Origin: Prochlorococcus sp. AG-412-C21
GTDB lineage: Bacteria; Cyanobacteriota; Cyanobacteriia; PCC-6307; Cyanobiaceae
Direction: 5' to 3'
Length of the DNA stretch: 46,273 bases
NCBI GenBank assembly: GCA_003214975.1
Contig: QCKZ01000006.1
Coordinates: forward strand, 1 to 46,273
Below are positions 23,641-44,807 of this stretch, piece by piece. A program made the translations under genes and the position numbers. The notes under the pieces are model-generated. The model did no database searches. It saw nothing but the letters and a program-made list of their open reading frames with translations, and was not told the DNA's origin. The stretch's first letter is position 1; each line of letters starts with the position of its first letter.

Positions 23641-24049
23641 TAAGGAAGAATTATAGACCTTAATTTTTTATATTTATCTATAAAAAACAAAGGATCATTT
23701 AAATCCTCTTACAGATTAAAAAAAAAGTAAATCAGCATATTTACGGATTTACTGAAAATATAAATAGGAGTAATTTATAAATGTTGAGTTCGGAGGCAAT
23801 CTAAATGATTGATAGTCCGCCTGAAATTTAGCAAATTCCAACATATAGGAAGCGTATTCCTGAGAATGGGATTTTTCGAAAATTAAAGTTCAATCAATTA
23901 GTCTGATAAGACTTCGCTTTATAATTACTAGTGACAATAGGGACTGAAATTATCGAGAGAAATCCCCGAATTCACCTATTTTAGGTTTATGAGTAAATAG
24001 ACTTTAAAATATGTAATTTTATATCCTTTAAGAAGGAAATTAGATATTA
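23641..24049. other. Gene-poor stretch with many hairpins; possible structured RNA
   Basis: No convincing gene. Perfect or near-perfect stems occur throughout: AGTAAATC/GATTTACT at 23726-23753 (followed on the minus strand by a run of T, so a possible minus-strand terminator), CAATC/GATTG near 23797, GGAA/TTCC near 23848, AGTCT/AGACT near 23900, ACCTA/TAGGT near 23974 and TCCTT/AAGGA near 24025. The stretch ends at a strong terminator. A non-coding RNA is possible on either strand; it does not match 6S, tmRNA, RNase P or SRP RNA as far as I can tell. Confidence 0.4.
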
Positions 24050-33476: not shown

Positions 33477-33686
33477 AATCTCTAGGATTATCATTAAGAC
33501 CTTCTTTTATTAGATTTAAATTATGATTTAGCATATTTAGATTAAGTACTTGTTGGACGATCCTCTTGTGATAAAGAATCTGGCTCCAACCTTGCGTCTG
33601 AATGGTACAAACTCTCAGATTAATTTTCAGAATATTTTTACTCTCTAAATTCTTTGAATCCCCTGTGGTAGTTGGGCTTTGGGCTA

Positions 33687-33758
33687 TACCCTTGTAGAGA
33701 ATTGAACTCGAGGCCTTTCCCTTACCAAGGGAGTGCTCTACCGCTGAGCTACAAGGGC
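33687..33758 (-). tRNA. tRNA-Thr(GGT)-like sequence, degenerate
   Basis: Seventy-two nt, same length as the real tRNA-Thr at 44644. The 5' half is identical, including anticodon GGT. The 3' half differs: acceptor GCCCTTG/CAAGGGT keeps pairing (G-T at the first pair, and a T-A replaces a T-G), but the anticodon stem has a C-A mismatch and the T stem a C-T mismatch. It may be an attachment-site chimera or a decaying duplicate; function as a tRNA is doubtful. Confidence 0.55.
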
Positions 33759-33781
33759 AATATAAAGTGGGCCGGGTTGGA
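33718..33781. repeat. Direct repeat, left copy (tRNA-Thr 5' half plus tRNA-Tyr 3' end)
   Basis: From TCCCTTACCAAGGGAGTGCT to GTGGGCCGGGTTGGA the sequence matches 44675-44739 with a single missing T in the spacer. It includes the last 14 nt of a tRNA-Tyr, although no tRNA-Tyr is present here, proving that this end was copied from the tRNA-Thr/tRNA-Tyr locus. Confidence 0.85.
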
Positions 33782-33955
33782 CCGTTCATGATTACCTGCA
33801 GCACAGTAATTCTGAAGTGTGCAAGATAAATTTTAATGGACTATCTGTGGCTGTCAAATAATTTCTAGGGAGTGCTGTAACTTAACTTCAGTCCACTTTT
33901 TTATTCATGAATCCATATTTTTAACTTTTTCATAATGAAGAGTTGCTAGAAAGAA

Positions 33956-34330
33956 ATGAGCAATATCTATAAATCTATGTCTCTCGATACAACTATGGTT
34001 TCAATTCATCCTCACTTCAAAATCAAGGATGGGAATATGGATCAGTGCATTGCTCTTTTAGAAGAAATTCTGGTACTGACAAAAGCTAAGGAACCTGACT
34101 GTCTTTTTTTTAATATCACTGCATGCGGGTCAGACAAGGCTTATGTAAGAGAGGCATATAAAGATGGTGCTGCCGCTTTATTTCATCTAAAGAATATGGG
34201 ACATATGATCCCCAAGCTTTTTGAAGTAGCTGACATTAAAGTACAGGTACATGGTCCTGCCAAGGAAATCGAACCATTAAAGGCAGTACTCGAAGATGCT
34301 GATTTTTATGAAGCAATATCTGGATTCTGA
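33956..34330 (+). CDS. ABM-fold (antibiotic-biosynthesis-monooxygenase-like) protein
   Basis: The 124-aa protein has an alpha/beta ferredoxin-like pattern: VSIHPHFKIKDGNMDQCIAL, then LFFNITACGSDKAYVREAYKDGAAALFHLKNM. Families of this fold include quinone monooxygenases and stress proteins that dimerise. No specific substrate. Starts at Met1 or Met8. First gene of the less AT-rich cassette series of the element; a terminator module follows 12 bp after its stop. Confidence 0.75.
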   Translation: MSNIYKSMSLDTTMVSIHPHFKIKDGNMDQCIALLEEILVLTKAKEPDCLFFNITACGSDKAYVREAYKDGAAALFHLKNMGHMIPKLFEVADIKVQVHGPAKEIEPLKAVLEDADFYEAISGF

Positions 34331-34342
34331 TTTAGATTGTAG

Positions 34343-34385
34343 TTATTGACAGTCGATCGCCGGGGCTTTTTTAGGCTCCTTTTTT
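34343..34385 (+). repeat. Repeated intergenic terminator module, copy 1
   Basis: TTATTGACAGTCGATC is followed by GGGGC-loop-GCTCC and a T-run. The same 16-mer and the same hairpin occur at 35219-35264. As a hairpin it should end transcription after the ABM-fold gene. Confidence 0.7.
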
Positions 34386-34458
34386 ATTTAGGAATTCAAA
34401 ATAAATTAATATTCCCTTTACTTATTCGAAGTAGATTTAGACCAACAAAAATATTTTT

Positions 34459-34533
34459 ATGTCTTCAACGTTTTATATTGTTCATCATGAATTTAAGGCA
34501 GGAAAAGCTGAAAAAACCTGTCCGAGTGACTAA
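34459..34533 (+). pseudogene. Possible 5' fragment of an ABM-like gene
   Basis: MSSTFYIVHHEFKAGKAEKT, then CPSD and stop. The opening beta strand and helix start of an ABM-like domain are present, and the reading then breaks off. It lies between two terminators and looks like a truncated cassette gene. Confidence 0.35.
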
Positions 34534-34569
34534 ATCCAAGGTTATAGATGTAAGCAATATATTTTACAA

Positions 34570-34604
34570 CCCCTTACATTTGACTCTGAAGGGGACTTTT
34601 TTTT
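34570..34604 (+). terminator. Terminator before pyrE
   Basis: CCCCTT-13 nt-AAGGGG followed after AC by eight T. It isolates pyrE from upstream transcription. Confidence 0.7.
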
Positions 34605-34651
34605 GAGATGACTGGTAAATTATCAAAAGCAACTAAACAATTAATTCTCTG

Positions 34652-35191
34652 ATGGAAATTTATAGAAAGACATTACTAAATCTTATAAAAGAAAGAGCAT
34701 ACAAGAAAGGTAAATTTACCTTATCTTCTGGTAAAGAATCAGAGCATTACATTAACTGTAAACCTGTTAGTTTATCCTGTGAGGGAAATGCACTTATATC
34801 CCATTTGATGTTTGAACATATAGAAGATAAATCTGCAGCAGTTGGTGGACTTACACTAGGTGCTGATCCTTTAGTTTGTGGTATCGCACAGAAAGCATAT
34901 TACTCAAATAAACATATTGATGCTTTGATCGTAAGAAAGAATCCGAAAGGATATGGAACAAAAGAAGTTATTGAAGGTAACAAGCCACCTAAAGGATCTA
35001 TCGTTACAGTATTGGAAGATGTAACCACAACAGGTAGTAGTGCAATCAAAGTAGTAAATGTTTTGCGTGATGCAGGTTACATTGTGAATCGTGTTGTTGC
35101 AGTCGTTGATAGAATAGAGGATCACATTGTATGGGAAAATAACAAGATAGAATTTATTTCTCTATACAAATTAGAGGATATTATTGAATGA
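34652..35191 (+). CDS. pyrE: Orotate phosphoribosyltransferase
   Basis: Joins orotate to PRPP to make OMP in pyrimidine synthesis. The 179-aa protein has the N-terminal FTLSSGKESEHYINCKPVSL, the VGGLTLGADPL segment, the catalytic loop region VRKNPKGYGTKEVIEG and the PRPP motif VTVLEDVTTTGSSA. It is complete. It lies within the mobile element without other pyr genes, so it may be a second copy or a relocated host gene. Convergent terminators flank it. Confidence 0.94.
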   Translation: MEIYRKTLLNLIKERAYKKGKFTLSSGKESEHYINCKPVSLSCEGNALISHLMFEHIEDKSAAVGGLTLGADPLVCGIAQKAYYSNKHIDALIVRKNPKGYGTKEVIEGNKPPKGSIVTVLEDVTTTGSSAIKVVNVLRDAGYIVNRVVAVVDRIEDHIVWENNKIEFISLYKLEDIIE

Positions 35192-35218
35192 ACTTTTGGC
35201 ACTTTGCACCTCTAATAA

Positions 35219-35264
35219 TTATTGACAGTCGATCTACAATAAGGGGCAATTAGCTCCTTTTTTT
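35219..35264 (+). repeat. Repeated intergenic terminator module, copy 2
   Basis: Same TTATTGACAGTCGATC as at 34343, then AAGGGGC-AATTA-GCTCC and seven T. The ATG of the next gene follows the T-run at once. The only purine-rich ribosome-binding candidate (AAGGGG) lies inside the stem, so the hairpin could also control translation. Confidence 0.65.
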
Positions 35265-35543
35265 ATGTCTCTTGAAACTACTGTTTTCACCTTCAAAATA
35301 AGTGTCCCTTTTGAAGAATGGGCTGCGGTTTATGACAGCGAAGAAAATATACAGATGAATAAAGAACGTGGAATTATTTGCTTATATAAAGGTGTAAAGA
35401 AAGATGATCCAACCAGTGTAATTCTTATTGAGCAGGGTGAAGAAGGGAAATCAAAAGCTATGTTTGAAGATCCAGAGGTAAAACCACTTATTGAAAGTGC
35501 AGGTCATATTTATGATTCAACTGTCATCTCCAGTTACTTTTAA
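35265..35543 (+). CDS. DUF3764-type protein
   Basis: The 92-aa protein, SLETTVFTFKISVPFEEWAA, VYDSEENIQMN ... LIESAGHIYDSTVISSYF, fits my memory of DUF3764, a picocyanobacterial family with an ABM-like fold and no known function. Its start directly follows a hairpin and T-run, which is unusual. Confidence 0.75.
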   Translation: MSLETTVFTFKISVPFEEWAAVYDSEENIQMNKERGIICLYKGVKKDDPTSVILIEQGEEGKSKAMFEDPEVKPLIESAGHIYDSTVISSYF

Positions 35544-35584
35544 GTGAAAGGTTTACTACTTTTTTCGCTTTTATCTTTTTACTA

Positions 35585-35998
35585 ATGGTAAAAGAAACTT
35601 CTCAACTAACAGAAAAGGAAGCTTTGAGTATCTATGCGAAAATGATGCATACTCTTGATTCATCTGAATTCGAATCGTTTTTGTCAGAAGATTTCACATA
35701 CTCTTCACAGAAAGTCTTGACCGATATGAGCTCAAAAGATGAATTTATTGAATACATCAGACCGAAACTTGAAACAATAAAAAAAACTAACAGTTCTGTT
35801 TATGCAGAATTAGGTGTCTGCCCAGCCTATGGTCATGCAGATTGCCTAATCATGGCACAAGGCGATAAGTCTAATCTTCTTGGAGTTGCTTATGCTTCTG
35901 TAGATAAAGGGAAAATATCAGGTATCTCTTTATGTATTGTTCCCACTCTTGATTTGGCTGAGAGGAGTGGAATTTATCCCGGACTTCAGTTGAATTGA
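35585..35998 (+). CDS. NTF2-like (SnoaL-type) protein
   Basis: The 137-aa protein has the cone-shaped NTF2-like pattern: an N-terminal helix pair with ALSIYAKMMHTLDSSEFESFL, then SEDFTYSSQKVLTDMSSKDEFIEYI and beta strands to VPTLDLAERSGIYPGLQLN. No catalytic set can be assigned. Follows the DUF3764 gene after 41 bp. Confidence 0.75.
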   Translation: MVKETSQLTEKEALSIYAKMMHTLDSSEFESFLSEDFTYSSQKVLTDMSSKDEFIEYIRPKLETIKKTNSSVYAELGVCPAYGHADCLIMAQGDKSNLLGVAYASVDKGKISGISLCIVPTLDLAERSGIYPGLQLN

Positions 35999-36192
35999 AT
36001 AATACAAATTTACTTCTTGCGGACCCTTATTTAGTTTGGCAATATTAGTAACCGACTCCAAAATTGGCACATCATTATAAGATGTTTCCCTTAATGGCCA
36101 GATAGAACTGAAGGAATAAAAGTCAGGGATTTTTCTAATATTTTTCTTTCTGTTCAGCTGTTAAAAAGCTCCTACACACATACTGATAGACA

Positions 36193-36975
36193 ATGAAAAT
36201 TATTAAGAGACTCAGGTCGCTGCCAGGCGACTCTCTGGGCGTTATACGCCGCACTCCGCCACTTGTTTTTGCAATGGCTGTCTTATCTCTCGGAGGATTT
36301 ATAGGCGCCTCTACGGTCCTTGTGAGAGGGTTCAGAACGGTTGAGAATACTATCACTGTTACAGGTGCTAGTACAGAGAGTTTTGAGAGTGATATTGCAA
36401 AATGGTCAGTCCAGGTAAAGACATCAGGTAAAACTCAGATTGACTCATTTACCAAGCATAAACAGTCCATTAATAAGACAATGGAATTCCTTAAAGCCAA
36501 TGGAATTGAGGATGGTGTAAAGCAGGATGTTTATCTTGGACCTGCGAGTATAAGTGAATATAAAACTAAGCATCCTAAGACTAATGAAATCATTAGAACT
36601 GAATGGATTACTTATCAGAATATTGAGATTGAAAGTAGGGATGTTTATAACATCCAGAAGACTCATAGTCAGATAACAGAATTACTTGGTAAAGGAGTAA
36701 GGGTTAAACCAAGCCGTCCTGAATTCACCTATTCAAAGCTGGCTGATAAACGAGTTGATATGCTCGCTAAGGCAGCAAAGGATGCAAGAATTAGGGCTGA
36801 AGCTATCGCTCTTCAGGCAGGCTCTGAAGTGGGTGGATTGAAGAAAGTGAACACTGGAGTTTTTCAGATAACAGTTCCTAATTCCACGAAGGTAAGCAGC
36901 TGGGGGTCTTATGACACTTCAACTATTAAGAAAGACATCACTGCGGTTATGGGAGTCACTTTCGCGGTTAAGTGA
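36193..36975 (+). CDS. SIMPL-domain (DUF541) periplasmic protein
   Basis: A membrane anchor or signal (about 24-46, TPPLVFAMAVLSLGGFIGAS) is followed by a SIMPL domain, TITVTGASTESFESDIAKWS ... KAAKDARIRAEAIALQAG ... VMGVTFAVK. Such proteins are secreted oligomers linked to membrane or oxidative stress. The base composition is clearly less AT-rich than the genome (for example the GC-rich 5' end), a sign of transfer. Confidence 0.88.
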   Translation: MKIIKRLRSLPGDSLGVIRRTPPLVFAMAVLSLGGFIGASTVLVRGFRTVENTITVTGASTESFESDIAKWSVQVKTSGKTQIDSFTKHKQSINKTMEFLKANGIEDGVKQDVYLGPASISEYKTKHPKTNEIIRTEWITYQNIEIESRDVYNIQKTHSQITELLGKGVRVKPSRPEFTYSKLADKRVDMLAKAAKDARIRAEAIALQAGSEVGGLKKVNTGVFQITVPNSTKVSSWGSYDTSTIKKDITAVMGVTFAVK

Positions 36976-36979
36976 TGAC

Positions 36980-37075
36980 TTAAGAGGTCTTCTTTTTGCC
37001 TTTAAAAATCATAAGTAAAGGCAGACCAATAAGCATCAGACTTCCATCAATTAATAAAAAAGTATTCAGATTCAT
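36980..37075 (-). CDS. 31-aa membrane microprotein
   Basis: MNLNTFLLIDGSLMLIGLPL, then LMIFKGKKKTS. One span with basic tail. Starts in an ATGA overlap with the upstream gene (37072-37075), so translation is coupled. Confidence 0.55.
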   Translation of the reverse strand: MNLNTFLLIDGSLMLIGLPLLMIFKGKKKTS

Positions 37076-37275
37076 TTATTCATTCCTTCGGGGGTATCCC
37101 AATTAAGGGGTATCCCTTTTTTAACGGGTTCTTTTTTCATGTCATCCATCTCTTTTCTGATTTTGTTGTAGTAGGCCAACTCTTCTGGATCATCAGAACC
37201 CAGACCATAATTCATGGTCGCTGCAAGATAAATTCTGTGCATCCGGTATGATGATAGTGACATTAATAAAGACAA
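37072..37275 (-). CDS. 67-aa hypothetical protein
   Basis: MHRIYLAATMNYGLGSDDPE, then ELAYYNKIRKEMDDMKKEPVKKG and NWDTPEGMNK. Several Met could start it (Met1, Met5, Met12, Met21), so the N-terminus is unsure. Coupled to the 31-aa gene. Unknown function. Confidence 0.55.
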   Translation of the reverse strand: MSLLMSLSSYRMHRIYLAATMNYGLGSDDPEELAYYNKIRKEMDDMKKEPVKKGIPLNWDTPEGMNK

Positions 37276-37591
37276 TCTTTAATAAATATATCTGAATTTC
37301 ATTCAAATTGTCGATTTCTGAAAACCAAGTCATATCAACTATTTTCGAAAAACCCCACCATAATACACGGGGGAGAAGAAATTAAGACAAGAAATTGACT
37401 CGTTGACTACTTACTGGATGTGTATACATCATCATTGTAAGTACTGTAAATAAAGCACTCTCAACCACATCTAAATTACTATTTCTTTACGTGGGGTATG
37501 TGGATTAATCACATAATGCACGTACTGTATTTAATAGATTAATAATGAATAGGTTGAGTAGTAATTTGTAAAACTAACTTAATTAAATCCT
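37276..37591. other. Intergenic stretch, no gene seen
   Basis: Contains short inverted repeats (CCCC-12 nt-GGGG near 37356-37375 and TGTG-GATTAAT-CACA near 37499) but no credible gene. It marks the change from the less AT-rich cassettes to the AT-rich part of the element. Confidence 0.4.
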
Positions 37592-37933
37592 ATGAAACAT
37601 CTTTTTATAATTATTAGTCTTTTTGGCGTTGTCACGCCCTTAAAATCAGAATCTTATAAAGAGGTTGATTGCAACTCTGCAATGACTCAATATGAAATGA
37701 ATATTTGCAGCAATAGATCACTTTATAAAAATGATTTAAAACTGAAAGAGGAAATTGGTGATAGTGAAGTATATAAAAAATGGATAATAGGTAGAGAAGC
37801 TATCTGCCAATATTATTCGGGGAAACAATTTGAAGGAGGTTCTATAAGACCAATGATGCAGAGTGGTTGTAACTTAAGACTTAATTCAGAGGCTAAAAGA
37901 TATTGTCTTACAGGTAATCCACAATGCGGTTAA
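37592..37933 (+). CDS. Exported LprI-like (DUF1311) protein
   Basis: A signal peptide (about 1-20, MKHLFIIISLFGVVTPLKSE) precedes the LprI/DUF1311 pattern DCNSAMTQYEMNICSNRSLY, followed by EAICQYYSG and further Cys (CNLRLNSEAKRYC, NPQCG). Family members include a lysozyme inhibitor. Disulfide-bonded periplasmic protein. Its end overlaps the next gene by 10 bp. Confidence 0.8.
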   Translation: MKHLFIIISLFGVVTPLKSESYKEVDCNSAMTQYEMNICSNRSLYKNDLKLKEEIGDSEVYKKWIIGREAICQYYSGKQFEGGSIRPMMQSGCNLRLNSEAKRYCLTGNPQCG

Positions 37934-38391
37934 ATTTATTTTCTTTAAAAAAATCGAGATTAGTTTTTATTTTTCTTTTCTTGTTTCAATTCCAATTTAT
38001 AAAAGCTTCTGAAACTAAATCTGATGCAAACAAATTGAGAGAATTATGGAAAAGTGCAATTCAAAATAATAGGAACTGGAATCATTATGCTGCACTTGAA
38101 GATTATTCAAAAGCATTAATTATTGCTCCTAATAATCATTTGCTTTTTTATAACCGAGGATTAACTTATGCTGATCTTCAACTATTAACTCAGGCAATAA
38201 ATGATTTTGATTCTTCAATAAAAATCAAACCTGATTTCGGTCCTGCATATGGTGATAGAGGAATGGCATTTTATGATCTTGATCAGAAGGAAAAAGCATG
38301 TTCTGATTTCAAAAAAGCAGGAGATCTTAAATATAATCCTGCTGTTAGTTGGATTAAAGATCCAAAAAGAAATTCATGGTGTATAAAATAA
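37924..38391 (+). CDS. Exported TPR-repeat protein
   Basis: An N-terminal hydrophobic stretch (about 12-28, LVFIFLFLFQFQFIKA) is a signal or anchor. At least two TPR units follow (NWNHYAALEDYSKALIIAPN; LLFYNRGLTYADLQLLTQAI; GPAYGDRGMAFYDLDQKEKA). Overlaps the LprI-like gene by 10 bp, so the two are coupled and may work together in the periplasm. Convergent with the helicase-nuclease gene. Confidence 0.85.
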   Translation: MRLNLFSLKKSRLVFIFLFLFQFQFIKASETKSDANKLRELWKSAIQNNRNWNHYAALEDYSKALIIAPNNHLLFYNRGLTYADLQLLTQAINDFDSSIKIKPDFGPAYGDRGMAFYDLDQKEKACSDFKKAGDLKYNPAVSWIKDPKRNSWCIK

Positions 38392-38485
38392 AAAACTCAA
38401 AAATATTTATTTATTCATAAGGAAATAATACTGTTTTTTGCAAGATTAGATAATTTGTAACTAATTAAAAGTTTTTAATAGGAGA

Positions 38486-41400
38486 TCAATTATTTTTTAC
38501 TTCTTGCGCTAATTTTGACTGAATGTAGTTATCAAGGTTTCTTATTTCTTTATCAGGGTCTCTAAACCAATCAGTAGACCATATTCTATATACGTTCCAA
38601 CCAAGGCTTTCTAAAACTTGTTGTCTTAATCTATCTCTAGCTCTTGCGTTATAAGAAGAATGGTATGCTTTCCCATCACATTCAATAGCTAGAATATATT
38701 TTGAAGAATCGTTTGGATCAATAATACCCATATCAATCTTATAATTGCTTACGCCTATTTGTGTATCTACTTTATGACCAATGTTTGTTAAAGCATCATA
38801 AACTGCAACTTCAAAAGGGCTATCAAATTCATTATTAGTTTGTCTTATCAAAGTGTCGGATAATTGACCTGTCTGTGCATATTCAAGATAGTTCCTAAAT
38901 GCTCTTTTACCTCTACTACTTTTATCATCTATTTTTATATCACTTGGTTTAAGAGATGAGACTACAATAACTTCATGTTTTGCTCGAGTAAAGAGAACAT
39001 TTAATCTCCTGTGACCATTTGCTTTATTAATTGGTCCAAAGTTCTGACCAACTATGCCAGATGCATCAGGTCCAAAAACAGTTGAAATTATTACTATATC
39101 TCTTTCATCTCCTTGAACATTTTCTAAATTTTTTACAACAAGTTCATTCAATGTTCCTTGATGTAATCTAGAAAATTCTTCAAGTATTGGATCTGAGTTA
39201 ATTTCTTTTTCAAGTTCAAGCCTAAGATCTGAAGAATTTCTCTCATTCATTGTGGCTATAAGAATTGATTTGTCAGGGTTCTTTTTAACGGTATTTTTTA
39301 AAACTTCAATGGTATATTTTACTTCAGTTAAATTTGCGCCCCCCTTTTTATAGTTGGGATTTTCTACAGGTAAATAAGTAATAGCAGTTCCTTTTTTATT
39401 AGTTGGAAAAATTGTTAAATCCCCGTTATAAAATTCCCAGTTAGAAAATGCAATTAAAGAATGATGCTTTGATCTATAATGCCAACCTAATTTACAATTA
39501 TTATCCTTACCAAGTACTTTTACAGATAAATCTAATATAGATTCTGAATCTTCAACATCTATTTCTTCATCATCGTCATCGGCTTGTTGTTTGGTCTCGA
39601 AATAATTTGAAGGAGGTAGTTGTTTATCATCGCCAACAATAATAATTTGTTTACATCTGGCAATTAAGCTAATTGCAAATTGTGGTTTCATTTGAGATGC
39701 TTCATCAATAATTAGTACATCAAAAATATCTGGAGATTTAGGAAGTAACTCTGCTGCGCTTGATGGGGACATCATTAAACATGGTTTTAAGCTCAAAATC
39801 GTTTTGAAAGATTGCTTAAAAAGTCTCATTAGAGCTAAAAAACGTGTTTTCTTATTAACCTCATGTTGAATAAGATAACCTTCTGTGTAATCTTGCTTCC
39901 TTCCTCTTTGATTTCCTGTCCTTAACAATGGAGATGGATTAATATTTAAATAATTTGAAAGTGTTTTAGAAGTATTTTTTACGAAATTAGTATCCTCTTG
40001 ATTAAAAAGTTTTCTTGATCTATTTAGAGTTCTTCCACTGTAGTTAGATAAAATATCTTCAAGTCCAATCTTTCTTATTCTTGAACCTATAATTCCAGCT
40101 TTAAATAATTTAGAAGCTTTAATTCCTGATTTCAAATTTAATTTATAAATCTGATTAATTCCTTTTTTAACTCCATTTTCTTGAAGGATATTTTTATTCC
40201 TAATAGTGTCACTTAATAAATTTTTATAAGGACTTAATCCTTTAAGACTTTTTAGTTCATTAATAATAAAATTAGGATCTTGATTAAAATAATCAGAATT
40301 TAAATTTTGTTCTAAGTATTCATTAAGCAAAAATGTAAGTTGAAGGTTTCCGAAAATATTAACTTTCTCCTCTCTAAGTTTTTCAAGTTTATTAAGGTTT
40401 TTAATGCAATAATCTAGGCCAAATTTATCAAGAGATTCTTTCACTATTAATGGGAAAGTATCAAAATTTAATTTTCCATAATCCTTTAGGAAATTTTCAA
40501 TTGATTTTGCTTTAAGATTTATTCCTAAATTTTCCCCTTCAAAAATATTATTTCCACTATTTAAAATCTGATTTATTTCTTTTGCAGTGTAATTTAATTT
40601 TTTTATTTGAGAACCAAACTCCCCTAAATCTAAAAGACTTAAGTCATAAATAATTTCTTTAGAGTAATTATCAAGTAAGCTTATTTTTACTGTAAATTCA
40701 GAAAGGTATTTATTAGTATCTTCAAGCGCAGAATTAAAGGATATCTCGCTATCGGTAGCTATTTGATGTATTGATGATTGATTTATTATTTCTGAGAGCT
40801 TTTGATCAGTATTATTGTTTATTTCAATATTTTTAAATGATTCAATAAGATATTTAGAAATTTGACCTCTAGAACCAATTGGGACAAAAGAATCAAAATT
40901 ACTTTTTAATCCAAGTTCTTTTTCAACATAAAAAACTATAAATTCTTTTAATTCGGATGGTATTTGAATTTCAACTGCTTTTTCTCTTAATTTAAAAATT
41001 CTTTCATTTATCAAACCAGATGTTTCTTTAAAATGATCTTCTTCTTGACTATTCCCTTTAATAAATAATTGACATTCATTAAAAATTACTGCGAGTCTTT
41101 TAAAAGATGGTAATTTTGTCTTTTCTTTAGAAATTATTTTCCATATTTTTTTTGCTTTTCTTAACTTTGGATTTAAAAAACATCCTAAAAATCCTGCATC
41201 TTTGATCGCTTCAATAGATCTCAAAAGTGAATTAATATCAATTTTTAAAAGTTCAGAAATTTCAACTCCGTAATTCTGAATTTTATTTTTTAAAGCTACG
41301 TTTTTGCAAATTAGTTCATAGATTTCAAATTCTTTGTTGATATCTTTTAATTTATTTGGCCCTTTCAATGAGTCTAAAATATCGCATACAAGATCAATTT

Positions 41401-43498
41401 GAATTGATTCATAATTTTCTTTGCATTCAATAATTCTTTGAATATCAGATAAAGAAATATTTGCGGAAATTGAATTTACATTTTTGTTTAGTTCTTGCTT
41501 TATCTTTCGAAAAATAGAAGATATTTTTTTGCAGTCAGATATCAAATTTTTTATACTTCCAGATGAATATCTATAGTTAAAGTTATTAATGAAATAATCA
41601 ATTATGTCATTAATAGATTTATAGTTTTCCTCTTCAAGGAGAATATCAATTTTTAATTCACCTATTTCTTCTTCAATAATTTCTCTCTCATAAAGTTTGT
41701 TCAGAAGTTTTCCTAAATCTTCTTTAGATTCTATTTTTAGTGAATGATTATCTTTTACTGGATAATTAGATTTTATAAATTCTAGACTTTCTATAAGATT
41801 TTTTATTTTGTTTTTATCGATATGCCAAAAATCTTTATAAATGTATGGAAAAATATTTTCATCATTTAATAAGCCTTGAATTTTGTCTATATATTCTTTG
41901 GAATAAGTAATTAATTGTGTAAAGTTTGAGGATGTTTTTGGGAGACCTCTTTTTTCAATAAATTCTTTTTTACCAAGCTTTTCTAATTCTCTGCTTGAGT
42001 CAATGAATATATCTAAATTTTCTGAAATTAATTTCAAGTCATTATCACTTATTTGATCTACATCTATTTGTAGTGCACTTTGATAAGTTTTTTTATCTTT
42101 AATATATTCTTTATTTAGAGAGTAGTTAATGTATTCCCCAATTAAATCAAAAACTTTATATGAGTTCTTGTTTAAATTTTTGTCTTCGCTTATATCTTTA
42201 TAATGTTCATTTAAATATGATCTTAGTTTTTTTAGATTCCCAAGATCTTCTCTGTAAATTTGATTATTATATCTAATCACTTTTCTTTCTATTCTATTTT
42301 TAAGACTTTCTATAACCTTGTTCTTTGGAGTGGCAGTACTATGAACTTCAAGTAGAAAATCGCCTAAATTTCTTTCACTCAATCTATTTTTTACAACTTC
42401 TAATGCTGCTAATTTATCTGCTGCAAATAGTACCTTTTTACCATCTCCAATAAGACTTGAAATCATATTAGTAATTGTTTGACTTTTTCCAGTTCCAGGA
42501 GGACCTTCTACAACAAAACTCTTTCCCTCTATTGCTTTTTTTATAACTCTATATTGAGTACTATCTGCATCTGCAATTAATTTTGGAATTGAATCAAGAC
42601 CTAAATTAATTTCTTCTTTGTCTTGATAAACTTCTTCACTTCCAAGAGGTTCTATTTTTTCTGAAACATTTCCTAATAAAAAACTTCTCATTAATTCTTT
42701 CTCATCACATGGATTTTTATCCCATGATTCGAAGTCAAGATCGTTATATATTGAGATGTTCATGAAAGGAAATAGACCTAAAGATGACCATTCCTTGAGG
42801 TTCCATTTTTCCCCAGTAATTGATTTATTTTTTTTATTTATGATTGTATTTACATCTTGGAATAATTTCTTTATATTTGCTTTTCCTTCCTCGTCAAATT
42901 CTAATTTTGGCATCTTAATGCCGTATTCTTTCTCAAGTTTTTGCCAAAGAGTAACGTTATAATTCATATCCTCTCCAGCAGTTTCTAAAAAGTATTTATA
43001 ACCATCACTAGTTTTTCTTTTTTCTATTCCTACTGGATAAATAGCTAACGGGGATAATCTCTTCTCTTCTTTACCAGTTATTCCTTTTAACTCATACCAT
43101 TCAAGGAAACCAATAACAATATTTAAAATATTAATTCCTTTTTCTTGATTATAAATTCTATTTTGATTCCTTAAATTATTACAACTCAGTTCAAATTTAG
43201 GATTCTCCTCAATAACTTGAATTTTGTCATCAAACAATTCATCTTTATCTTTATCAGCATTAGATTCAAGTATTACTTCTAATTCAAAATCAATTTCTTT
43301 TGGTTTTGCAATTAGTTCTAATTTTGAATAGGTATCAAGTTTTCTTATAATAAATTCTGGGATTTCATTTACTATTCTTAAAAAGTTTTGTCTAACACCT
43401 TTCGATGTGTGTTTATAATTTAGAAGCTTATTTCGGGCACTAAAATCTAAAATTTTTTTTCTTTCTTCAGCAAGTTTTTGTGAAAGGATTTTGTCCAA
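38486..43498 (-). CDS. 1670-aa SF1 helicase with Vsr/DUF559-like nuclease (putative antiviral protein)
   Basis: Domain order: DUF4011-like N-terminus (about 1-200, KKILDFSARNKLLNYKHTSK); Walker A VEGPPGTGKSQT near residue 332; about 900 residues of helical, partly coiled-coil insertion; Walker B VLIIDEASQM near 1260; motif III IIVGDDKQLPP; motif VI LNVLFTRAKHEV; and a C-terminal PD-(D/E)XK-type nuclease (about 1557-1665) with YKIDMGI, AIECDGKAYH and SLGWNVYRIWSTDW, like the MTES_1575/DUF559/Vsr group. Single-protein defence systems with DUF4011, AAA helicase and Vsr-like nuclease are known (for example the Hhe type). The base composition is AT-rich like the host. It is intact and next to a tRNA-integrated integrase. 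Confidence 0.92.
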   Translation of the reverse strand: MDKILSQKLAEERKKILDFSARNKLLNYKHTSKGVRQNFLRIVNEIPEFIIRKLDTYSKLELIAKPKEIDFELEVILESNADKDKDELFDDKIQVIEENPKFELSCNNLRNQNRIYNQEKGINILNIVIGFLEWYELKGITGKEEKRLSPLAIYPVGIEKRKTSDGYKYFLETAGEDMNYNVTLWQKLEKEYGIKMPKLEFDEEGKANIKKLFQDVNTIINKKNKSITGEKWNLKEWSSLGLFPFMNISIYNDLDFESWDKNPCDEKELMRSFLLGNVSEKIEPLGSEEVYQDKEEINLGLDSIPKLIADADSTQYRVIKKAIEGKSFVVEGPPGTGKSQTITNMISSLIGDGKKVLFAADKLAALEVVKNRLSERNLGDFLLEVHSTATPKNKVIESLKNRIERKVIRYNNQIYREDLGNLKKLRSYLNEHYKDISEDKNLNKNSYKVFDLIGEYINYSLNKEYIKDKKTYQSALQIDVDQISDNDLKLISENLDIFIDSSRELEKLGKKEFIEKRGLPKTSSNFTQLITYSKEYIDKIQGLLNDENIFPYIYKDFWHIDKNKIKNLIESLEFIKSNYPVKDNHSLKIESKEDLGKLLNKLYEREIIEEEIGELKIDILLEEENYKSINDIIDYFINNFNYRYSSGSIKNLISDCKKISSIFRKIKQELNKNVNSISANISLSDIQRIIECKENYESIQIDLVCDILDSLKGPNKLKDINKEFEIYELICKNVALKNKIQNYGVEISELLKIDINSLLRSIEAIKDAGFLGCFLNPKLRKAKKIWKIISKEKTKLPSFKRLAVIFNECQLFIKGNSQEEDHFKETSGLINERIFKLREKAVEIQIPSELKEFIVFYVEKELGLKSNFDSFVPIGSRGQISKYLIESFKNIEINNNTDQKLSEIINQSSIHQIATDSEISFNSALEDTNKYLSEFTVKISLLDNYSKEIIYDLSLLDLGEFGSQIKKLNYTAKEINQILNSGNNIFEGENLGINLKAKSIENFLKDYGKLNFDTFPLIVKESLDKFGLDYCIKNLNKLEKLREEKVNIFGNLQLTFLLNEYLEQNLNSDYFNQDPNFIINELKSLKGLSPYKNLLSDTIRNKNILQENGVKKGINQIYKLNLKSGIKASKLFKAGIIGSRIRKIGLEDILSNYSGRTLNRSRKLFNQEDTNFVKNTSKTLSNYLNINPSPLLRTGNQRGRKQDYTEGYLIQHEVNKKTRFLALMRLFKQSFKTILSLKPCLMMSPSSAAELLPKSPDIFDVLIIDEASQMKPQFAISLIARCKQIIIVGDDKQLPPSNYFETKQQADDDDEEIDVEDSESILDLSVKVLGKDNNCKLGWHYRSKHHSLIAFSNWEFYNGDLTIFPTNKKGTAITYLPVENPNYKKGGANLTEVKYTIEVLKNTVKKNPDKSILIATMNERNSSDLRLELEKEINSDPILEEFSRLHQGTLNELVVKNLENVQGDERDIVIISTVFGPDASGIVGQNFGPINKANGHRRLNVLFTRAKHEVIVVSSLKPSDIKIDDKSSRGKRAFRNYLEYAQTGQLSDTLIRQTNNEFDSPFEVAVYDALTNIGHKVDTQIGVSNYKIDMGIIDPNDSSKYILAIECDGKAYHSSYNARARDRLRQQVLESLGWNVYRIWSTDWFRDPDKEIRNLDNYIQSKLAQEVKNN

Positions 43499-43726
43499 AA
43501 ATTATATTTTGTTCAATTAATAAATTTTAACCCATGATTTAAAAAGCAAATATTTTATTTAAGGTTTGAAAACAAGTTAAGTTTTTCAGCAAAAATATCC
43601 CAAGGTGAAAGATATTTATGTAAAGCACAATTTTTTTAAAAAACCCTTAAATTTTTATATAAAAATCTTTTCTCGTTTCATACGTCTAATCACTTTAAAT
43701 ACCCCCAACGGGTGAAAGTTATTAAT

Positions 43727-44530
43727 TTAAAAACTTAATTGATAGTGACTGTATCTCATCAACATTTTTATATCTCTGTGTCCGCTGCAAGCACTTATCT
43801 CCAGAGCATTCATTCCATAACTCTACATTCTGCTTATGGCTGCACAATTCTTTCTTCTTATATAAAGTAATTTTTTTTTAAGATCTATATTTCTCCAGGT
43901 CAGGCTCAATAGTTCGGAGCGGCGGAAGCCAGTAGTTAGGGCAAGCTTTGTAAGTCTCAGATGATTTTTATTGGACATCTGAGACAGTTCATATATAAGT
44001 CTTTTCTCGTCTTGATCAGTGAAAAATGGAGCCCTTGCATCTCCAGTCCCTCTTACTCTCAGATGTCTTGCGGGGTTATCTTTTATTTCCGCTCCTCTTT
44101 CATCCTTTGCCCAGTCGATCAGTACTCTTAGTACTCTCAGTTCCCGCATAACTGTATTCGGTTTCACCTTCAGTAATCGTTCATCTCTCCAGACCGCAAA
44201 GTGCTTTATCTGCAGGTCTTTAAGACAAATATCCCTAAGCCAGCTTTCCGCTGTCACTCTGAGGGGATATTTCTCATTCTCCGCACTACGGTGCAGCAGC
44301 AGCGGACCATTTATATAGTCATTGATTGCCTCTCCCAGGGTGATGGGGATGTCATTTATAACTTTTTTTGTTCTCTTTTCGACTGCATCTGCCCAGGATT
44401 CCGCCAGATCTCTGGAAAGAAAAGTTCTGGACCTCGGGCCTACATAATTCTTCCTTCTGATAAGGACCTGCCAGCCGTTTCCGCTTCTTCTGATTGTTGC
44501 CATTTGGGTGTCATCGTTTATGTGATGCAC
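43727..44530 (-). pseudogene. Tyrosine recombinase (integrase), internally deleted
   Basis: The N-terminal arm and core-binding part is complete (MATIRRSGNGWQVLIRRKNY ... WRDERLLKVKPNTVMREL) and the first catalytic Arg is present (TTGFRRSELLSLTW). After LLYIRRKN the protein jumps to CAAISRM and a TAG at 43823. The same frame continues beyond it with SYGMNALEISACSGHRDIKM, then LMRYSHY: the normal integrase end with GH and the Tyr nucleophile. The missing piece of about 40-70 residues contained the HxxR Arg. Probable real start is Met10. Base composition is far less AT-rich than the genome. Faces into the element from tRNA-Thr. Confidence 0.88.
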
Positions 44531-44550
44531 CTCCAGAAATCTGCCCTTAA

Positions 44551-44587
44551 AACAGAAAAGTGGACCCGTAATCGGACGTCCACTTCT
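44551..44587 (-). terminator. Terminator of the tRNA-Tyr/tRNA-Thr unit
   Basis: On the minus strand AAGTGGAC-loop-GTCCACTT is followed by TTCTGTTTT. It lies 57 bp beyond the tRNA-Thr 3' end and before the integrase. Confidence 0.7.
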
Positions 44588-44643
44588 GATGAATTCTTTT
44601 TAGCGATAGTGGTAATCTCTTTGATACCAAGCTATCCAACGAG

Positions 44644-44725
<82 letters not shown>

Positions 44726-44739
<14 letters not shown>

Positions 44740-44807
44740 TTTGAACCAACGTAGGCAGAGCCAGCGGATTTACAGTCCGCCCCCTTTAACCACTCGGGCA
44801 CCGACCC
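44726..44807 (-). tRNA. tRNA-Tyr (GTA)
   Basis: Eighty-two nt, class II with a long variable arm. Acceptor GGGTCGG/CCGGCCC with discriminator A; anticodon loop CTGTAAA gives GTA. Ten bp upstream of tRNA-Thr; the two form one transcription unit. Confidence 0.97.

Follow-up and report, generated by a model that had tools for sequence, protein, structure and literature searches.

A DUF4011 helicase-nuclease of a candidate-defence kind in a tRNA-Tyr-site integrative element of a Prochlorococcus-like cyanobacterium

The window, by which the whole analyzed stretch of 46,273 nucleotides is meant, carries a helicase-nuclease gene on the minus strand (positions 38486–43498). The open reading frame begins with a TTG start codon, spans 1670 residues without an internal stop and is the sole match in its own genome (1.25 Mb, 65 contigs, 74% complete). 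The encoded protein combines an N-terminal DUF4011 domain, an SF1 Upf1-like helicase and a C-terminal MTES_1575 nuclease, and a Pfam search bore out this arrangement, of which an earlier note had read split SF1 helicase motifs and a C-terminal Vsr/DUF559-type nuclease from the sequence and had proposed a check against DUF4011, AAA_11/AAA_12 and MTES_1575. The DUF4011 domain (residues 15–188; positions 42935–43456, minus strand) is matched at 6e-25 with 88.5 bits against a cut-off of 22.2. The helicase is recovered as AAA_11, split into two stretches, and AAA_12 (2.7e-20 and 4.8e-14), all above the cut-off. The nuclease domain (residues 1562–1658; positions 38525–38815, minus strand) is matched at 6.8e-36 with 122.7 bits against a cut-off of 38.2, and the protein additionally shows a DUF559 match (3e-5).

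The helicase motifs were located by motif reading and alignment. The Walker A motif GPPGTGKS (residues 332–339; positions 42482–42505, minus strand) and the Walker B motif, or motif II, DEASQ (residues 1265–1269; positions 39692–39706, minus strand) are separated by 927 residues (K338 to D1265), close to the spacing of about 900 residues estimated at first reading. Walker A, Walker B and the conserved arginines of the helicase are all intact. Between the Walker motifs, residues 441–1150 contain 11 prolines and 31 glycines per 710 residues, a composition that fits a mostly helical insert. The full-length domains and conserved motifs rule out a chance open reading frame or a decayed gene.

The nuclease is well conserved in relatives, as the defence reading of the earlier note had required. 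In an alignment of 94 proteins, D1589, D1608 and G1609 are present in 94 of 94 sequences and E1606 in 93, and the cysteine of the Glu-Cys-Asp-Gly motif is found in 84. On family grounds, D1589, E1606 and D1608 are read as the putative catalytic residues. The alignment comprises the window protein, 12 congeneric proteins, three from plasmid records and those of 78 of 82 outside loci; it omits the partial congeneric proteins of genomes G009, G018 and G049 and four loci (L177, L197, L204 and L240) that have no open frame of at least 900 residues with a Walker A motif. The outside loci were retrieved by the patterns DSTQY[KR]VI and GTGKSQTI, so conservation in the Walker A region is partly built in, and that of the nuclease is unaffected.

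A profile search of solved structures matched the helicase to Sen1, SMUBP-2, UPF1 and Dna2. The predicted structure of residues 1151–1670 (pLDDT 83.6) has UPF1 as its best fold match (E-value 4.6e-12; TM-score 0.43 of the query) and also matches IGHMBP2, Sen1 and Dna2. Residues 3–330, which include the DUF4011 domain, were modeled with a pLDDT of 84.7, and no PDB fold match to this model was found at an E-value of 0.001 or lower. The N-terminal part of DUF4297 in HerA-DUF4297 was considered as a DUF4011 counterpart and rejected as too weak a match (Z-score 2.8, root-mean-square deviation 4.2, 108 aligned residues).

Among the PADLOC models, the best match of the protein is PDC-S37 (893 bits, 1e-268), followed by Hhe (595 bits, 7.5e-179). 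The NCBIfam models Hhe (NF042953) and ProA (NF058533) give 867.4 and 843.1 bits against equivalog cut-offs of 2000 and 1500, respectively. Both scores lie far below the cut-offs, and neither Hhe proper nor ProA proper was accepted as the identity of the protein. These profile matches assign the protein, as a deep variant, to a known and widespread candidate-defence kind under the PDC-S37/Hhe umbrella, in line with the earlier assignment to proteins found in defence collections.

The gene is distributed sporadically in the genus. Homologues at an E-value of 1e-20 or lower occur in 16 of 200 congeneric genomes, including its own, and in four of 66 high-quality genomes. No homologue was found at this threshold in the other 184 genomes, many of which are incomplete, or in 62 of the 66 high-quality ones. 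The gene is therefore accessory, as had been anticipated, and a core gene is ruled out. Beyond the genus, relatives are very widespread, with at least 583 confirmed, 80 of which were retained for comparison. Plasmid records contain 442 matches among 72,556 at an E-value of 1e-5 or lower, and none covers 80% of the query. Phage records contain two matches among 50,697, and a scan of viral contigs yielded two loci with 42% and 37% identity; on these counts, a viral origin of the gene was rejected.

A quick tree of 516 columns places the window protein with four Prochlorococcus-like long forms (support 100) and then with a lake cyanobacterium (97). A larger branch of 21 rows (100) takes in this clade together with two annotated Hhe proteins, and the eight shorter forms (1338–1442 residues) fall outside it. 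The tree carries program warnings, because branches are long at the short Prochlorococcus-like forms and the residue composition is unusual in the window, G033 and L183 rows. Both lineages are found next to the same tRNA-Thr gene, the long one in the window and the short one at L027, L028, L029, L030 and L035, and the two lineages that share this slot stand well apart in the tree. The DUF4011 gene is not tied to this site, because it adjoins tRNA-Thr in only six of the 16 genomes that have it; the G179 copy is located beside a SIMPL gene on another contig. A second slot was noticed between clusters F39 and F42, which holds a long form in G198 (L024) and short forms in G103 and G104 (L032 and L033).

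In the window, the helicase-nuclease gene lies within an integrative element of about 10.96 kb (33782–44739) that reaches from a conserved right end to the 3' end of a tRNA-Tyr(gta) gene (44725–44807, minus strand), the integration target. The proximal attachment core occupies positions 44725–44739. It is followed by a tRNA-Thr(ggt) gene (44643–44715, minus strand), which is read as the element-borne copy, and by a truncated tyrosine integrase of 235 residues identified with Pfam (43823–44530, minus strand), full-length relatives of which have about 330 residues. Owing to the loss of about 190 bp from within the gene, the 3' part of the integrase persists as a remnant (43730–43840, minus strand). 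The integrase remnant scores 32.7 bits against a Pfam cut-off of 27.1 and adjoins the tRNA. The lost segment includes a box that we take to be the HxxR box of the integrase. Because of this deletion of about 190 bp with the presumed HxxR box, the window element is probably immobile; the description of the gene as mobile thus appears apt for its origin and probably not for the present copy.

Besides the helicase-nuclease, the element carries a TPR protein (37924–38391, plus strand) and an LprI-like small protein (37592–37933, plus strand) as cargo. Further in lie a SIMPL (DUF541) protein (36193–36975, plus strand), the cluster of which is present in 27 of the 66 slots read, and a phosphoribosyltransferase-like gene (34652–35191, plus strand; 21.8 bits, below the Pfam cut-off of 26.3). 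The SIMPL cluster is absent from several unoccupied slots and may be a standing part of the element. The phosphoribosyltransferase-like gene is presumably a second pyrE; the other copy, 49% identical, lies on another contig, and the gene might be nucleotide-salvage cargo. At the far side, the right-end sequence CACACTTCAGAAT..TGTGCTGCAGG (33795–33821, minus strand) precedes a distal attachment core (33767–33781, minus strand), which corresponds to the final 15 nt of tRNA-Tyr, and a diverged distal tRNA-Thr(ggt) (33686–33759, minus strand), which is read as the original chromosomal copy. The distal tRNA-Thr scores 59.5 bits, against 72.1 bits for the proximal one, and is still recognized as a tRNA. 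The 27-nt right-end pattern has one match in the window at up to three mismatches, with none expected. Outside the element, an AT-rich stretch contains a Yfr8/9 cyanobacterial RNA (23783–24008, 252 bits). This RNA, together with the size and base composition of the genome, is the basis on which the genus is taken to be Prochlorococcus.

The same anatomy recurs in relatives. The repeat unit consists of the last 15 nt of tRNA-Tyr, a spacer and the whole or nearly the whole tRNA-Thr. This repeat, which includes a tRNA 3' end, lies in direct orientation at both element ends, with a length of 93–97 nt in nine of 66 slots and a partial form in two more (L030 and L124). Of the 200 congeneric genomes, 25 carry the right-end pattern (the window's own among them), at 26 places in total, and a reversed control pattern gave no match in any of the 200. 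At 19 of the 20 right ends read among these 26 places, the tRNA-Tyr core follows after 12–13 bp and tRNA-Thr after 36–38. The exception (L024:15920–15946) lies elsewhere in G198, downstream of the long-form DUF4011 gene that this genome carries, and is followed by a different sequence, TTCCAACCCTGCTCCA; it may mark a decayed element or a relative of the element that uses a different tRNA-like site. The integrase is present, whole or in part, in 39 of the 200 genomes, including the window's own, and copies of about 330 residues exist in relatives.

Unoccupied sites match both flanks of the element. On the proximal side, tRNA-Tyr/aroQ is matched in 177 of 200 genomes (E-value of 1e-10 or lower), and in many genomes the DNA match to tRNA-Thr/tRNA-Tyr/aroQ stops no more than a few bases from where tRNA-Thr ends at its 3' side. 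On the distal side, the unoccupied site L149, which has a single tRNA-Thr, aligns over 149 nt at 90.6% identity and continues about 55 nt past the repeat. Fifteen sites were compared with the distal flank; at the 12 others without a left end, the match past the tRNA repeat is shorter than that of L149 or absent, and L127 and L135, which carry the element left end, were used as a contrast. The repeats, the right end, the integrase, the break in the match and the L149 flank are therefore read together as an element at 33782–44739 that targets tRNA-Tyr and brings its own tRNA-Thr. This reading places the helicase-nuclease gene in an island, as the note had supposed. Stacked elements are indicated in L099 and L102, where another left end comes after the distal tRNA-Thr. 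L028, L099, L102, L105, L111 and L115 have a distal tRNA-Thr that hardly differs from the proximal one; the distal copy has diverged in the window, in L097 and in L131, and is cut short in L030 and L124. This graded divergence is read as probable decay of the displaced copy.

The cargo of the tRNA-Tyr/tRNA-Thr slot was compared across 66 slots, namely the window, five further slots fetched for DUF4011 (L027, L028, L029, L030 and L035) and 60 slots picked by hand from 177 genomes, 40 of these, with few exceptions, for a match that extended into the element end, and 20, again with few exceptions, as controls. Slots were scored over 15.5 kb downstream, with some contigs shorter, and integrase pieces of at least 70 residues were visible to the open-reading-frame step; L136 (G182) was classed as having no left end, and its integrase lies about 16 kb further in. 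Slots with an integrase hold MzaB/C/D/E with a cytosine methylase and Vsr, PDC-M33-like genes, type I and type IV restriction genes and NsnB-like genes. Slots without a left end contain type IIG and MkoA-like genes (L136, L137, L142 and L151). The occurrence of type I, IIG and IV restriction and Mza genes in this slot in relatives is at odds with the earlier statement that Prochlorococcus usually lacks most restriction systems.

PADLOC-labelled defence genes are present in 14 of 17 slots with an integrase open reading frame of at least 300 residues, five of 10 slots with an integrase fragment, two of 14 slots with the left end only and six of 25 slots with no left end; since the slots were chosen by hand, these fractions are not population frequencies. 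The three long-integrase slots without a defence label are L105, L107 and L118. The labels come from PADLOC scans of 29 selected cargo proteins and were extended to others through BLAST clusters, and some matches are weak (for example, C33 at 2.6e-15 over about 140 residues). The contrast between long-integrase and no-left-end slots (14 of 17 vs 6 of 25; p 4e-4), which persists when the six slots fetched for DUF4011 are left out (12 of 15 vs 4 of 23; Fisher p 2e-4), is indicative only, because hand-picked slots, related genomes, cluster-spread labels and weak matches cause the p-values to overstate it.

A further module recurs in four tRNA-Thr slots (L118:1073–8328, L107, L114 and L125) and consists of large TPR-CHAT proteins together with two uncharacterized proteins (C56 and C57), the representatives of which matched nothing in Pfam or PADLOC. 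In three of these slots, the module is joined by a member of the protein cluster that has a DnaB-like helicase domain. Homologues of C56 and C57 are also found near DUF4011 genes in G049 (48–55% identical) and G003 (28–34%), at loci L025 and L034. The TPR-CHAT module is a candidate for an unlabelled defence system.

Taken together, these observations make it likely that the protein, a helicase-nuclease of the PDC-S37/Hhe kind, acts by itself against phages or mobile elements and is an exchangeable cargo of a tRNA-site element in Prochlorococcus-like cyanobacteria. The defence role is deduced from the family and the genomic context. At the level of the protein, the Upf1/Dna2-like motor would load on and translocate along nucleic acid, and the DUF4011 module and the long insert may gate the motor. 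The C-terminal nuclease, presumably of the PD-(D/E)XK type, would then cut invading DNA that is unmodified, has ends or consists of replication or recombination intermediates. DNA is assumed as the substrate here, and RNA is a further possible substrate because RNA and DNA helicases are both among the nearest solved structures. Protection might come from cutting the invader directly or from an abortive suicide of the cell.

At the level of the element, the integrase would direct recombination at the final ∼15 nt of tRNA-Tyr. With its left end, the element would bring in a 3' end for tRNA-Tyr, the spacer and a full tRNA-Thr, so that neither tRNA would be disrupted. The cargo would come next, followed by the conserved right end, which would border on the displaced 3' end of tRNA-Tyr and the tRNA-Thr that the chromosome had originally. 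Further elements could land in the same site and generate stacked copies. With a dead integrase and a diverged original tRNA-Thr, the island in the window is probably fixed. The AT-rich composition, which had been taken as a sign of long residence in Prochlorococcus-like genomes, is only compatible with the data.

Four other explanations were weighed against this reading. The protein might guard the element by excluding rival elements, plasmids and satellites at the tRNA site more than it protects the cell from phages. We regard this as unlikely: the gene does ride an integrative element at a reused site, but relatives are found on plasmids, on chromosomes of many phyla and in other places in the genus, and the stacked elements of L099 and L102, which illustrate the reuse, also imply that any exclusion is not absolute.

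The helicase-nuclease could instead be part of a multi-gene system and need two companions of about 356 and 156 residues or the TPR/LprI pair, a reading that appears rather improbable. Both companions adjoin the helicase in six loci (L021, L023, L024, L027, L028 and L030) and occur with both DUF4011 lineages and at more than one chromosomal place (e.g., L027:10734–12431). However, neither lies beside the window gene, neither has a Pfam match, and the shorter one is also found beside a type IV restriction gene (L111). The single-gene character proposed at the outset agrees with the window, where neither companion adjoins the gene, and is put in question by those six related loci.

A housekeeping or repair helicase-nuclease of the Dna2/RecBCD-like type, with an incidental island location, would agree with the Upf1/Dna2-like motor seen in the profile and fold matches. 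It would also agree with one study (PMC10250203), in which a DUF4011 gene is a conserved flank (cDHS1) in every P. aeruginosa isolate. This explanation is nevertheless improbable in light of the missing matches in most congeneric genomes, high-quality ones included (184 of 200 and 62 of 66), the occupation of one slot by two separate DUF4011 lineages and the restriction and Mza genes among the slot cargo of relatives. Equally doubtful is a homologous replacement of the island at a conserved tRNA pair in place of site-specific integration, for which the recurrence of the SIMPL gene and small open reading frames in many slots, some without an integrase, and the potential of flank recombination to exchange cargo can be cited, but which is opposed by the sharp duplication that starts at the same tRNA-Tyr base, the adjacent integrase, the right end at a fixed 12–13 bp and the break of the match near the tRNA-Thr 3' end.

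Under the preferred reading of a self-contained defence protein borne as exchangeable cargo, a broader proposal can be put forward tentatively. The element might represent a lineage dedicated to the exchange of whole defence systems at one tRNA pair in the ocean's most abundant phototroph, in which each insertion would bring a fresh tRNA-Thr, the host copy would decay and the host would come to depend on the left end after integrase death. The two DUF4011 lineages, Mza and restriction genes would then be swappable modules. If true, the element would be a vehicle defined by its sequence (target, left end, right end and integrase) for the swapping of anti-phage systems in a streamlined ocean cyanobacterium, and any genome or metagenome could be read for its defence cargo in relation to cyanophage pressure. 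Unlabelled slot genes, such as the TPR-CHAT module, would be candidates for new defence systems. The protein kind is already known, and what appears to be new here is the genomic setting, that is, the element anatomy and the cargo exchange. A literature search by title, which covered few subscription papers, found no description of the tRNA-Tyr/tRNA-Thr slot and nothing on Prochlorococcus with tRNA-Tyr and a genomic island.

Among known systems, Hhe (NF042953; PADLOC PDLC02194) has the same three domains in the same order as the window protein, and two annotated Hhe proteins share the 21-row branch with the window clade (SH-aLRT 100). The two differ in score and length. On the PADLOC Hhe model, the window protein reaches 595 bits, compared with 1471 bits for an annotated Vibrio Hhe and 2379 bits for a Xenorhabdus relative, and it is ∼190–250 residues shorter than the two annotated Hhe proteins (1855 and 1915 residues, the first one cut). 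In PMC10925250, Hhe is grouped with MkoA/MkoC in the SF1 Upf1 group. PDC-S37 (PADLOC PDLC05009) is a label for a single-gene phage-defence candidate, and the window gene likewise stands as a single gene there. The PDC-S37 model is broad, given that the annotated Vibrio Hhe scores 1203 on it, and thus cannot settle the subfamily; no paper naming PDC-S37 was found in the literature search. ProA (NF058533) can be aligned to residues 6–1666 of the window protein.

The element resembles tycheposons, to which it can be likened through a second-hand summary (PMC10872708), in its tRNA border and tyrosine recombinase. It may differ from tycheposons in that defence genes are the cargo most often recognized here and in that the tRNA-Thr is duplicated in full. 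A preprint (PMC10187409) describes integrase islands of picocyanobacteria that sit at tRNA-Phe and tRNA-Cys and likewise carry restriction genes; by their description, these islands use other tRNAs than the tRNA-Tyr of the element. Judged from its ends, target and integrase gene, the element is a variant of the tRNA-site integrative elements.
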